Assembly (NCBI GenBank): GCA_913063365.1
Contig: CAJXYC010000004.1
Location: forward strand, 1-32,920
Direction: 5' to 3'
Length of the DNA stretch: 32,920 nt
DNA from: an uncultured Cellulomonadaceae bacterium
Lineage (GTDB): Bacteria > Actinomycetota > Actinomycetes > Actinomycetales > Microbacteriaceae
This document shows positions 23,994 through 29,301 of this stretch, piece by piece. Made by a program: the position numbers and the translations under genes. The notes below the pieces were generated by a model. The model was given only the letters and a program-made list of their open reading frames with translations. It was not told where the DNA came from and did no database searches. The first letter of the stretch is position 1; the number at the start of each line of letters is the position of its first letter.

Positions 23994-24866
23994 GTGACGC
24001 TCGAGCAGATTGACCGGGCGCTCTCCAGGCTCCAGGCAGCAGGTGTCGCCTCTCCTGAGGCGGACGCCTGGCATCTGCTCTCTTTCGCCACCGGGATTTC
24101 GCGTGGTGAACTCCATGCACAGACCATCGCCGGCCGCCTCGAATTATCGGACGAAGTCCTCGACCGCTTCGAGGAGGCGGTCAGTCGCCGTGAGCAGCGT
24201 GAGCCGCTCTGGCACATCACCGGCCTGGCGCCTTTTCTCAATCTGGAGTTATCGGTGGGACCGGGAGTGTTCACCCCCAGACCAGAAACCGAGCTGTTGG
24301 CTGAGCAGGCGAGGACTGAGCTGGAGCTGATGCCACCACGTGATGGTGTGATTCAGGTCGTCGATTTGTGTGCAGGGTCTGGAGCAATTGGATTAGCAAT
24401 TGCCCATGCCTCACCCCATGCACAGGTCCTTGCGGTCGAGGTTTCCCCCGAGGCCTCGGACTACCTGCGCTCCAATGTCGCTCGCCTGGCACCGGAGTCT
24501 GTCGAGATTCTGATCGGTGATGTGACTGACGCCCTCGGGGTACGGGGGGAAGGGTCAGTAGACCTGGTGGTCTCCAATCCGCCGTATCTCGTTGAGGGAG
24601 TCGATGAACTCGATGCTGAGACGCGCGAGTCAGACCCGGATATTGCCCTCTTTGCCGATCAGAGGGGCCTTGCCGTCATCGACACCGTCATTGCGGTGTC
24701 GTCGACATTGCTCCGAGATGGGGGAGTGGTGCTCATCGAACACGGCATCGACCATGCCGCAGAGGTTCGGGAGATGCTCGGCGGGTCCGGATTTGCCCGA
24801 GTGGAGACGATGACCGATTTGCTCGGTCGTCCCCGTTTTACCCGCGCTGAGCGCGCTCGTCGATAA
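23994..24866 (+). CDS. prmC: Release factor glutamine N5-methyltransferase
   Basis: 290 aa; PGVFTPRPETELLAEQA, VVDLCAGSGAIGLAIA, DLVVSNPPYLVEGVDELD. Confidence 0.94.
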   Translation: MTLEQIDRALSRLQAAGVASPEADAWHLLSFATGISRGELHAQTIAGRLELSDEVLDRFEEAVSRREQREPLWHITGLAPFLNLELSVGPGVFTPRPETELLAEQARTELELMPPRDGVIQVVDLCAGSGAIGLAIAHASPHAQVLAVEVSPEASDYLRSNVARLAPESVEILIGDVTDALGVRGEGSVDLVVSNPPYLVEGVDELDAETRESDPDIALFADQRGLAVIDTVIAVSSTLLRDGGVVLIEHGIDHAAEVREMLGGSGFARVETMTDLLGRPRFTRAERARR

Positions 24867-25467
24867 AGCCCTGCATCGCCTGCTGTAGTTCGCCAGCGGT
24901 CTGGCCGGGATTGAACCAATGCCCGGTGATGCCAATGGCTTCCGCGCCTCGAACATTTTCTGGAATGTCGTCGACAAAGAATGTTTCTGACGCTGGAATT
25001 CCTAAATGATCAACGGTCCGTTGGAAGACGGTGGGCTCTGGTTTTCTCTCAAAGAAATGGGCTGTCGCAAACAAATTCTCCCCAAACACATCGGCGAGCT
25101 CGGGGGCAATAGTGTCGGCAAGGTGCTCGCCGATGAGCGCTCCGTTATTGGTGAGAACTGCAATGTCCCCGTGCTGAGCGGCGAACTGAGCCACCGCCAC
25201 AATGTCAGGTCGTAGCTCCATCGCCGAGCGCCGGTGAAATAACCATTGCTCTCTCGTGACCTCACGCTCAAAAGCGGCGTTTGCCCGCTGGAGGTATTCC
25301 TCACCGGTTGGTGGATCGCCGCGCTCCGCGGCCCACTCACCGTCGTCATGCCACCACCGACGACGAAGCTCGTGAAAGTCGTGACCGGTGACCTCGCTCA
25401 AGCCGTCCATTCGCCGACGCCACTGATAGTCGTAGAGGACATTGTCCATGTCGAACAGAAAGAGCAT
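24838..25467 (-). CDS. HAD-superfamily hydrolase (subfamily IA)
   Basis: ATG 25467 (MLFLFDMDNVLYDYQWRRRMDGLSE), DxD motif, VLTNNGALIGEHL, FERKPEPTVFQRTVDHLGIPASETFFVDDIPENVRGAEAIGI. Track start 25503 is an extension. Confidence 0.88.
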   Translation of the reverse strand: MLFLFDMDNVLYDYQWRRRMDGLSEVTGHDFHELRRRWWHDDGEWAAERGDPPTGEEYLQRANAAFEREVTREQWLFHRRSAMELRPDIVAVAQFAAQHGDIAVLTNNGALIGEHLADTIAPELADVFGENLFATAHFFERKPEPTVFQRTVDHLGIPASETFFVDDIPENVRGAEAIGITGHWFNPGQTAGELQQAMQGFIDERAQRG

Positions 25468-25506
25468 CACGGTAAGCCTAGGGCCCCTGCGTAGACTGAC
25501 CATCTG

Positions 25507-26175
25507 ATGGCCACCTTGTTCGATGTGCGCGATGAAGAGGCCCTAATGGCCGGTCTTCACCAGGCTCACGCCGCGCTATCCCGCGGTGAAATCGTCGTGG
25601 TCCCCACCGATACCGTCTACGGCATCGGTGTCTCCCCTCGGGTTCCAGGCGCCATCGACCGCGTGGTGGGGGCGAAGGGACGCGGCCGGGATATGGCGCC
25701 GCCCATTCTGGTCTCGGGTTCCGATCAAGTGTCAGGCCTGGTGGCGGAAGGGGCCGTTACCGACCACGTACAAGACCTCATGAAACAGTTCTGGCCAGGG
25801 GCACTCACGGTCGTCCTTCCTGTCTCGCCTGATCTGGACATCGACATTGGAGAAACTCCAGGGACCATTGCTCTTCGAGCTCCAGACCAAACGGCTTTGT
25901 TAGAGCTTCTCCGCATGCACGGCCCGCTCGCGGTGACCAGTGCCAATCGGCACGGTGAACCCCCGGCGACGAGTGTGTTTCACGCCATCAACACCTTTGG
26001 GGACGAGGTCGCGGTGTATTTGAATGCGGGCTCTGGCTCGGACACCGACCACACCCCCTCCACCATCGTTGACGCGACAGACCTCGCGACTGGCGGCACC
26101 CGCCTGGTGATTCTCCGCGAGGGAGCAATTTCGGCCAAAGAGCTCACATCGGCCGGTTTTGAGGTGGGCCAGTGA
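25507..26175 (+). CDS. tsaC: L-threonylcarbamoyladenylate synthase (Sua5/YciO/YrdC family)
   Basis: 222 aa; VVVPTDTVYGIGVSPR, GAKGRGRDMAPPILV (KxR), LAVTSANRHGEPPATS (SxN). Confidence 0.92.
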   Translation: MATLFDVRDEEALMAGLHQAHAALSRGEIVVVPTDTVYGIGVSPRVPGAIDRVVGAKGRGRDMAPPILVSGSDQVSGLVAEGAVTDHVQDLMKQFWPGALTVVLPVSPDLDIDIGETPGTIALRAPDQTALLELLRMHGPLAVTSANRHGEPPATSVFHAINTFGDEVAVYLNAGSGSDTDHTPSTIVDATDLATGGTRLVILREGAISAKELTSAGFEVGQ

Positions 26176-27302: not shown

Positions 27303-27740
27303 GTGAGCGTCGAGCTACTGATCAGACGGACATGGCTGTGGGGGATTGTCGGAATCTCGCTGGTCGCTGTTGTCTCGAGTGTGGCCGGGGCCCTGGTGGC
27401 AGAGCTAGAAGGTGTTCTGGGCGCACTCCTTGGCACCGCGGTTGGCTTCGCCTTTCTGGCCCTCACACCCCTGTCCATCACGTGGGCGCTTCGGGCGGGG
27501 CGAGGAGATGTGCTCCGGCCAGGTTTCTTTGCCGTGGTACTCGGTGTCTGGTTAGCGAAGTTTGTCGTGTTCCTTGCCCTGGTGTTCTGGTTAGGTGACG
27601 TCGCGTGGGCAGATTCCACCACGCTGTTTCTGACGATTGTGGCGGCGCTGCTCGTGGGCCTGATTGTGGAGGTCACGGTCGTAATCCGCTCGAGGCCCCC
27701 CGAAATTGACGTCGAGCTCCCCAGCTCCTCACACACATGA
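27303..27740 (+). CDS. AtpI-like small membrane protein
   Basis: 145 aa, about 4 hydrophobic helices, immediately upstream of the ATP-synthase genes. Assigned by position and topology only. Confidence 0.6.
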   Translation: MSVELLIRRTWLWGIVGISLVAVVSSVAGALVAELEGVLGALLGTAVGFAFLALTPLSITWALRAGRGDVLRPGFFAVVLGVWLAKFVVFLALVFWLGDVAWADSTTLFLTIVAALLVGLIVEVTVVIRSRPPEIDVELPSSSHT

Positions 27741-28378
27741 GTCCCGCCGACGTTCTCAGTATTGACACTCCACGAGGAAAATCTGAGGCGCTACTGCGGG
27801 CGTCGAGAGAACTGGGACGTGGACAGGTCGTCGTTCTCCCCACCGACACCACGGTCGCGGTCGCAGCCGACGCTTTTTCGGCTGTGGGGAGGTCTCGTCT
27901 CGCGGCACTGAAAGGCTGGGATCAGCCAGTGGCACTGCAGATTTTGTTCTCCAGACCAGAAGCGCTGCACGCGCTCGCCGCGGAGGTGACGCCGTTAATG
28001 ACGACACTGACAGAAGCGCTCTGGCCAGGACCGCTTAGCATCATGACGCCTGTCAACCCGTCGCTCGCGGGTGGCCTCGCCGACTTTGCTCCGGTGGTCT
28101 CACTCCGCATTCCCGATCACGACGTACTGAGGGAGCTCCTGGCGGACACTGGTCCGCTGGCGGTGAGCGGAGTCCAGGGTGTGGAGATGAGTTCGGAGGC
28201 GATTTCTCTGACGTTGGAGGCCACAGTGCCTCCCGGCTCCAGGCGCTCCACGGTGATTGAACTGGACGAGGAGCACGAAGACGGCCCGGTTATTCGGATC
28301 CTTCGACGGGGAGCGGTGACGAAAAAAACGCTGCAGGACACAGTCGGGCGCGCAGCACGAGTCGAGATTGCCGACTAG
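27737..28378 (+). CDS. Divergent Sua5/YrdC-domain paralogue, function unclear
   Basis: 213 aa; QVVVLPTDTTVAVAADAFSAVGRSRLAALKGWDQPVALQILFSRPEALHAL...ALWPGPLSIMTPV...VSLRIPDHDVLRELL...LAVSGVQG: YrdC fold landmarks with altered KxR and SxN motifs. ATGA overlap with the upstream gene. Confidence 0.8.
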   Translation: MSPADVLSIDTPRGKSEALLRASRELGRGQVVVLPTDTTVAVAADAFSAVGRSRLAALKGWDQPVALQILFSRPEALHALAAEVTPLMTTLTEALWPGPLSIMTPVNPSLAGGLADFAPVVSLRIPDHDVLRELLADTGPLAVSGVQGVEMSSEAISLTLEATVPPGSRRSTVIELDEEHEDGPVIRILRRGAVTKKTLQDTVGRAARVEIAD

Positions 28379-28422
28379 ACCGTTTTTCTCCCAGCTAACT
28401 GGTAGCAGGGGGCCTCAGGGAT

Positions 28423-28431
28423 TGATAGGGT
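28423..28431 (+). promoter_or_regulatory. Putative extended -10 (TGATAGGGT) for the atpB-onward transcript
   Basis: TGNTANNNT pattern in the 134-bp gap before atpB; no convincing -35. Confidence 0.25.
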
Positions 28432-28512
28432 CATTAGACACGTAGCCGCCGCGCGACTCTGTGCGCCACGACTCGGGAGACAACGCTGTTCGCGACACTC
28501 AGTAGCCGCCTG

Positions 28513-29301
28513 ATGCCTCTGGCCGGCGGCGAGACCGGTGAGTTCTCCCCACCGACCATTGCGGAATTCTTCCCCCCCGCGATTCTTTTTGAAGGCACCA
28601 TCTTCGAGATGAACCGGATCGTATTGATCCGTTTGCTCGCCGTGTTGGTGCTCTTCCTCGTGTTCTATTTCGGCACCCGGAAGATGACCGTGATTCCTGG
28701 CCGCTTCCAGGGCGTGATTGAAATGGCGCTGGACTTGGTCCGCAGCGGAATTGCGATCAACGTGTTGGGAGAGAAAGACGGGAAGCGTTTCCTCCCGCTG
28801 ATCTCCAGCATCTTCTTCCTGGTGTTGTTTATGAACCTCACCGGAATCATTCCGGGGCTCAATATCGCTGGCACCAGTGTGATTGGAATGCCGCTTGTCC
28901 TGGCGGTGACCGCCTATCTGGCCTTCATCTACGCCGGGTTGCGAAAACATCCGGGAACCTTCCTTCGAAACTCGCTGTTCCCACCGGGTGTGCCCTGGCC
29001 CCTCTACATCATCGTCACACCCATTGAAATCGTCTCGACGTTTATTCTCCGACCAATCACGCTGACTCTTCGTCTGTTGATGAACATGGTCGTGGGTCAC
29101 TTCTTGCTCGTGCTGTTTTTCTCCTCGACGCACTTTTTCATCCTGTATTCCGGCAACATCCAAGCCCTCTTCGGCATCGGCACGATTGCCTTCAGCATCG
29201 TGTTCACCTTTTTTGAAATTTTTGTTGCCATCCTGCAGGCCTATGTTTTTGCCCTCTTGACCGCCGTCTACCTCCAGCTCGCGCTGGCGGAAGAACACTA
29301 A
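28513..29301 (+). CDS. atpB: F0F1 ATP synthase subunit a
   Basis: 262 aa; ISSIFFLVLFMNLTGIIPGLNIAGTS, LRPITLTLRLLMNMVVGHFLLVLFF, FALLTAVYLQLALAEEH. Confidence 0.95.
   Translation: MPLAGGETGEFSPPTIAEFFPPAILFEGTIFEMNRIVLIRLLAVLVLFLVFYFGTRKMTVIPGRFQGVIEMALDLVRSGIAINVLGEKDGKRFLPLISSIFFLVLFMNLTGIIPGLNIAGTSVIGMPLVLAVTAYLAFIYAGLRKHPGTFLRNSLFPPGVPWPLYIIVTPIEIVSTFILRPITLTLRLLMNMVVGHFLLVLFFSSTHFFILYSGNIQALFGIGTIAFSIVFTFFEIFVAILQAYVFALLTAVYLQLALAEEH

Follow-up and report, generated by a model that had tools for sequence, protein, structure and literature searches.

A conserved TsaC-derived paralogue lacking the ATP-site motifs lies upstream of atpB in Pontimonas

Gene order at the atpB locus

The window (the whole stretch of DNA analysed here, 32,920 nucleotides) comes from an assembly (G000) of 1.37 Mb and 84% completeness, and its source is taken to be a small marine bacterium of the genus Pontimonas (Microbacteriaceae). 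A canonical TsaC of 222 aa is encoded at 25507..26175; it contains all motifs (PTDTVYG, KGR, TSAN), clears the cut-off of the TIGR00057 TC-AMP synthase equivalog (140.7 bits) and is likely the working TC-AMP synthase. The next gene, for a WecA/MraY-like glycosyl-phosphate transferase (PF00953; 26172..27299), overlaps tsaC and is followed by one for an AtpI-like membrane protein (NCBIfam NF053722, 'Cg1360 family ATP-synthase-associated protein'; 27303..27740). The second TsaC-like gene, referred to here as the paralogue, is a complete open reading frame of 213 aa with an ATG start (27737..28378), defined by the frame itself, profile searches, alignment and a predicted model. It overlaps the AtpI-like gene by ATGA (27737-27740) and stands directly before atpB (ATP synthase subunit a; 28486..29301). 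All these genes lie on the forward strand. An earlier note on this DNA had correctly read the frame, its kinship with TsaC, the canonical copy upstream and both flanking junctions; its spacing of the copies ('two genes later') is corrected to two genes between them, the WecA/MraY-like and the AtpI-like one.

The stretch between the paralogue and atpB contains, on the same strand, a promoter-like extended -10 element (TTGATAGGGT, 28422..28431), recognised by the pattern TTGnTAnnGT in 14 Pontimonas species, and a small conserved hairpin of the atpB leader (28447..28470) that shows weak covariation. This downstream side is constant: the 14 aligned species have the extended -10-like TTGnTAnnGT, the small hairpin, GGAG and then CTG, and GGAG with CTG also precedes atpB in several other Microbacteriaceae genera. 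In the window GGGAG stands ahead of the CTG, which shares its frame with an ATG at 28513; the sister species (G302) has ACG in place of this ATG. The start of atpB is probably the CTG at 28486, after the promoter-like element, rather than the ATG at 28513. A sigma-70 consensus scan of the window did not call the element at 28422..28431, and the promoter is therefore deduced from the comparison between species. Since a conserved -10-like element and leader intervene before atpB, the atp genes appear to be transcribed from their own promoter.

A gene for a HAD-family hydrolase (24838-25503) lies on the opposite strand and separates prmC from tsaC; it recurs in the Pontimonas loci and was undetected in the seven loci read from other genera.

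Fold and active-site residues

The two copies in the window share 29% identity. The paralogue matches PF01300 (Pfam) over residues 26-145 (E=5e-20, 72.2 bits, with a gathering score of 25.1) and falls below the TIGR00057 cut-off (69.4 vs 123.2 bits). Its TsaC domain reaches the end of the protein, with no C-terminal SUA5 domain. The AlphaFold2 model, built from the genus alignment, has a pLDDT of 88 and a pTM of 0.86, and pLDDT drops below 50 only at residues 146-149, the site of a ~12-residue deletion following the former SxN motif. In Foldseek the predicted model matches the Sua5/YciO/YrdC family (E 3e-16), in the order Sua5 of P. abyssi, TsaC2 of T. maritima, Sua5 of S. tokodaii, then YciO and TsaC of E. 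coli.

In TsaC/Sua5 enzymes the KxR and SxN residues bind ATP, while T33, S181 and R195 (P. abyssi Sua5) bind threonine; yeast Sua5 required all these ATP- and threonine-site residues (PMC10321239). The motifs were compared after aligning the 18 paralogues to 56 TsaC proteins, and the threonine triad was numbered by profile alignment to the solved P. abyssi chain. The Arg of KxR is kept in none of the 18 paralogues (Met in 14, Trp in 4), nor is the Asn of SxN; the Lys of KxR remains in 4 and the Ser of SxN in 3. The next conserved Arg is replaced by E, D, Q or A in all 18, mostly by an acidic residue or Gln. The T33 equivalent, on the other side of the site, is present in 17/18 (Ala in G303), the S181 equivalent in 16/17 (G030 has no aligned Ser) and the R195 equivalent in 17/17. 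The window paralogue has all three, as T36 (27842-27844), S171 (28247-28249) and R190 (28304-28306; all on the forward strand). With the tetrad lost and the threonine triad nearly always kept, it is mainly the ATP half of the site that has degenerated. This ATP/Mg half (KxR with the Arg and PP after it, and SxN) is replaced, and the same losses recur in all 18 genus orthologues, hence not by chance.

In the window copy KxR reads KGW (27911-27919, forward strand; K59 at 27911) and PTDTVYG has become PTDTTVA, both as described in the earlier note. The SxN site needs a finer reading: Ser and Asn are indeed both gone, with Gly (G145) for the former and a gap or Q147 for the latter, but the visible Ser of 'VSG', taken before as the remnant of SxN, aligns with Thr/Ser138 of the TsaC signature. 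Catalytic residues at shifted positions were looked for and rejected, since no other conserved Arg or Asn lies near either motif. The window lineage additionally lacks the Tyr of PTDTVYG and the WDLGDTxGT stretch, and the main group of paralogues shows new conserved residues in the former ATP site (RxM, Q142, and W, Y or F in place of Asn).

The retained fold and threonine residues, together with Lys or Arg at the position of the KxR Lys, could be taken to mean that TC-AMP is still made with substitute residues. We regard this as extremely improbable: the KxR Arg and the SxN Asn, which yeast Sua5 required (PMC10321239), are lost in 18/18, and the same genomes also encode a normal TsaC whose motifs are all intact. 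The earlier view that the copy is probably no normal t6A enzyme is thereby borne out by the loss of the ATP-binding tetrad.

Distribution, neighbours and selection

A second PF01300 copy occurs in 18 of the 19 Pontimonas genomes examined, and the one genome without it (G308) likewise has no match to atpB. Wherever the junction is assembled (17/17 genomes), the paralogue lies immediately 5' of atpB. The family sample comprised 300 genomes from 85 genera, and 294 genomes gave a match. Eleven non-Pontimonas genomes gave two matches, the second being mostly a Sua5-type protein of ~320 aa or a fragment of a split match, and the seven loci from other genera read prmC-tsaC-wecA-atpI-atpB with no second copy. 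Because these loci lack the second copy and the double matches are mostly explained otherwise, this sample marks the paralogue as a genus trait of Pontimonas. The t6A genes tsaD and tsaE were found in near-complete relatives; their loss from the window's genome is not believed, tsaD being absent from four incomplete assemblies only.

The assembly of the window also holds a third PF01300 gene, a Sua5-type frame of 334 aa on another contig (L203, G000:C87, 2997-3998). It clusters with Sua5 proteins of other genera, the remaining Pontimonas genomes have no third match, and it is either a late gain or a contaminant contig.

The upstream neighbour of the paralogue varies. In many Pontimonas species a polyamine cluster of ~10.5 kb (L084 5409-15938) lies between atpI and the paralogue; it encodes an FAD oxidoreductase, a class III aminotransferase, an Lrp-type regulator and an aminobutyraldehyde dehydrogenase, followed by a PotF/D-like binding protein, PotA, two permeases and a class III transaminase. 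This last gene overlaps the paralogue by GTGA in most species; it stands directly 5' of it in 11 genomes and is left as decayed remnants in two more (G295 and G104). The cluster is absent from the window's genome, G302, G030, G310 and G311. A TatB-like gene separates atpI from the paralogue in G104 (L088 10276-10644), G310 (L077 2928-3314) and G311, where it was assigned through a near-identical locus. An ATGA overlap joins the paralogue to atpI in the window and G302, and G030 has the paralogue directly behind atpI. The location between atpI and atpB is therefore conserved on the atpB side, and varies on the atpI side.

The paralogue might serve polyamine uptake and transamination as a member of the operon whose last gene it overlaps, which would fit the GTGA junction, the transaminase or its remnants upstream, and the fastest evolution being seen in the mostly operon-less window group. 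Yet the gene persists in the five genomes without the operon and the two with a decayed one, G104 and G301 break a simple rate rule, and the flanks (~1.5 kb each side) of 29 Pot-transaminase operon loci outside Pontimonas contained no TsaC-like gene; we give this reading little credence.

The constant neighbour is atpB, and its adjacency held in 17/17 junctions despite several changes upstream, as would be expected if F0F1 required the protein for its assembly or regulation and the gene were for that reason fixed before atpB. This too seems a poor candidate: the conserved -10-like element and leader separate the gene from atpB, synteny at the level of a genus needs no functional cause, and the family's other genera, as sampled, manage without the paralogue. 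The suggestion in the earlier note of a regulator of ATP-synthase expression draws on adjacency alone, and it meets the same element and leader ahead of atpB, and an overlap that in most species is with the polyamine operon and not with atpI. The earlier reading of the enzyme holds; the proposed link to ATP synthase was its weak point.

The paralogues form a single clade (support 97/97) among the Microbacteriaceae TsaC proteins, and the gene was probably fixed in the Pontimonas ancestor. The AU tests reject neither Pontimonas tsaC as one clade (p 0.45) nor its grouping with the paralogues (p 0.35), so that they allow both a local duplication and an origin in which the present tsaC was acquired in place of an older one. 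Replacement of tsaC by a foreign gene was also considered: the tree sets Pontimonas tsaC apart from the paralogue, but a single clade is compatible with the AU tests, so that such a replacement is no more than possible. The working TsaC copies of Pontimonas themselves fall into two separate tree groups rather than one clade.

Purifying selection, which the earlier note proposed to look for across Microbacteriaceae, is apparent in most of the genus, where dN/dS is ~0.05, below the ~0.08 of tsaC (maximum-likelihood values of 0.046 for the 12 paralogues of the main group and 0.082 for their tsaC). For the window group (the window, G302 and G030) the values, which are rough because synonymous sites are near saturation, are 0.10 for the paralogue against 0.016 for tsaC, and 0.18 against 0.077 in the pairwise comparison with G302. 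In the tested sets omega=1 is rejected (2dlnL 160-1497). Selection is thus relaxed in the window lineage (0.10-0.18), yet far from 1. In the window's species the gene evolves faster, has lost its ancestral upstream neighbour, the polyamine operon, and now overlaps atpI.

The long branches, extra losses, deletion and relaxed dN/dS of the window group would suit a relic on its way out in this lineage. This appears improbable, given that the frame is open in the window, G302 and G030 and that dN/dS of 0.10-0.18 is accompanied by the rejection of omega=1. A strain-specific, decaying copy, which the earlier note had allowed for, is excluded by the genus survey (18/19) and by dN/dS; with genus-wide conservation and purifying selection, neither this nor a shift of the catalytic residues therefore applies. 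The paralogue is a real, conserved and degenerate branch of TsaC, confined to one genus in this sample.

Proposed role and known systems

Our preferred reading, held with moderate confidence from the residues kept and lost, is that the paralogue is a genus-specific pseudoenzyme derived from TsaC, which would make no TC-AMP, would probably still bind a threonine-like ligand and would act by binding. With the half of the site that binds ATP and Mg replaced and the fold and threonine-binding residues retained, the protein would be unable to adenylate, and L-threonine or a similar amino acid may still be bound, though the kept residues may instead serve folding. Its action would then be that of a ligand-responsive partner, exerted on another protein and not through TC-AMP catalysis. 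The extra losses and higher rate of the window lineage could, against this reading, mean slow loss. A sensor of ATP, one form of the nucleotide sensor suggested earlier, is improbable, since it is the ATP site that was lost.

The main rival is a neofunctionalised enzyme, in which the kept amino-acid pocket and the new residues would carry out a different, ATP-independent chemistry with an amino acid or carbamate as substrate. It draws on the conservation of these residues in the main group (R and M at KxR, Q142, the aromatic residue at Asn) and on a dN/dS below the value for the active TsaC. However, the window copy is without most of them (W for M, V for Q, the deletion at the aromatic position), and a catalytic set is not recognisable; we consider this rival unlikely, if worth keeping in mind.

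As to what the proposed pseudoenzyme would control, TsaC and t6A are our first guess and ATP synthase the second, in this order because the kept pocket is that of the TsaC substrate and the atp genes seem to be self-promoted. A more specific version, in which a dedicated pseudoenzyme branch of TsaC acts as an ATP-blind, threonine-binding regulator linking amino-acid or t6A status to translation or energy genes in this streamlined marine genus, is a speculative extension that we would not expect to hold in full.

Almost all organisms have TsaC/Sua5. A copy without the ATP half, found throughout a genus and in most species more constrained than the canonical TsaC, provides a natural experiment on the capacities of the fold in the absence of ATP, and P. 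salivibrio CL-TW6, a cultured member of Pontimonas, makes it experimentally usable. A large survey kept TsaC/Sua5 hits by a filter on the KxR/SxN tetrad (PMC10321239); with such filtering in at least one large survey, conserved copies without the tetrad are omitted or misnamed as TC-AMP synthases. The main text of the P. salivibrio CL-TW6 genome paper (PMC6106888) does not mention Sua5, YrdC, threonylcarbamoyl or ATP synthase, and among the papers searched none dealt with a YrdC/TsaC pseudoenzyme or an operon link between TsaC and ATP synthase.

Compared with the Microbacteriaceae TsaC, the paralogue has the same fold, length, origin and most of the core (PTDT, WPG, LRxP, GPLA, STV, RxG), and differs in lacking KxR, the following Arg/PP and SxN and in scoring under the TIGR00057 cut-off. 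The best structural matches are Sua5/TsaC2 of P. abyssi (6f87), T. maritima (9d3h) and S. tokodaii (3aje), with which the threonine triad is common; the SUA5 domain and the ATP-site residues are missing from the paralogue.

YciO (1k7j) offers a parallel, being likewise a TsaC paralogue and one that does not stand in for TsaC in vivo, but its active-site residues are largely intact and its surface bears a basic patch (PMC12506659). The window paralogue has lost the ATP residues, so it is not a YciO, and it is acidic (pI 5.0, net charge -7; two relatives have pI 8.9, all computed from sequence). At the locus, YciO neighbours rnm whereas the paralogue neighbours atpI and atpB. RNA binding of the YciO type seems improbable, as neither the motifs nor the net charge fit, and the RNA sensor proposed earlier finds no support, a basic YciO-like surface not being indicated by the charge. 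The YrdC-like domains of HypF and TobZ belong to the same fold family and are weaker matches; unlike the paralogue, they are users of carbamoyl phosphate within multidomain proteins.
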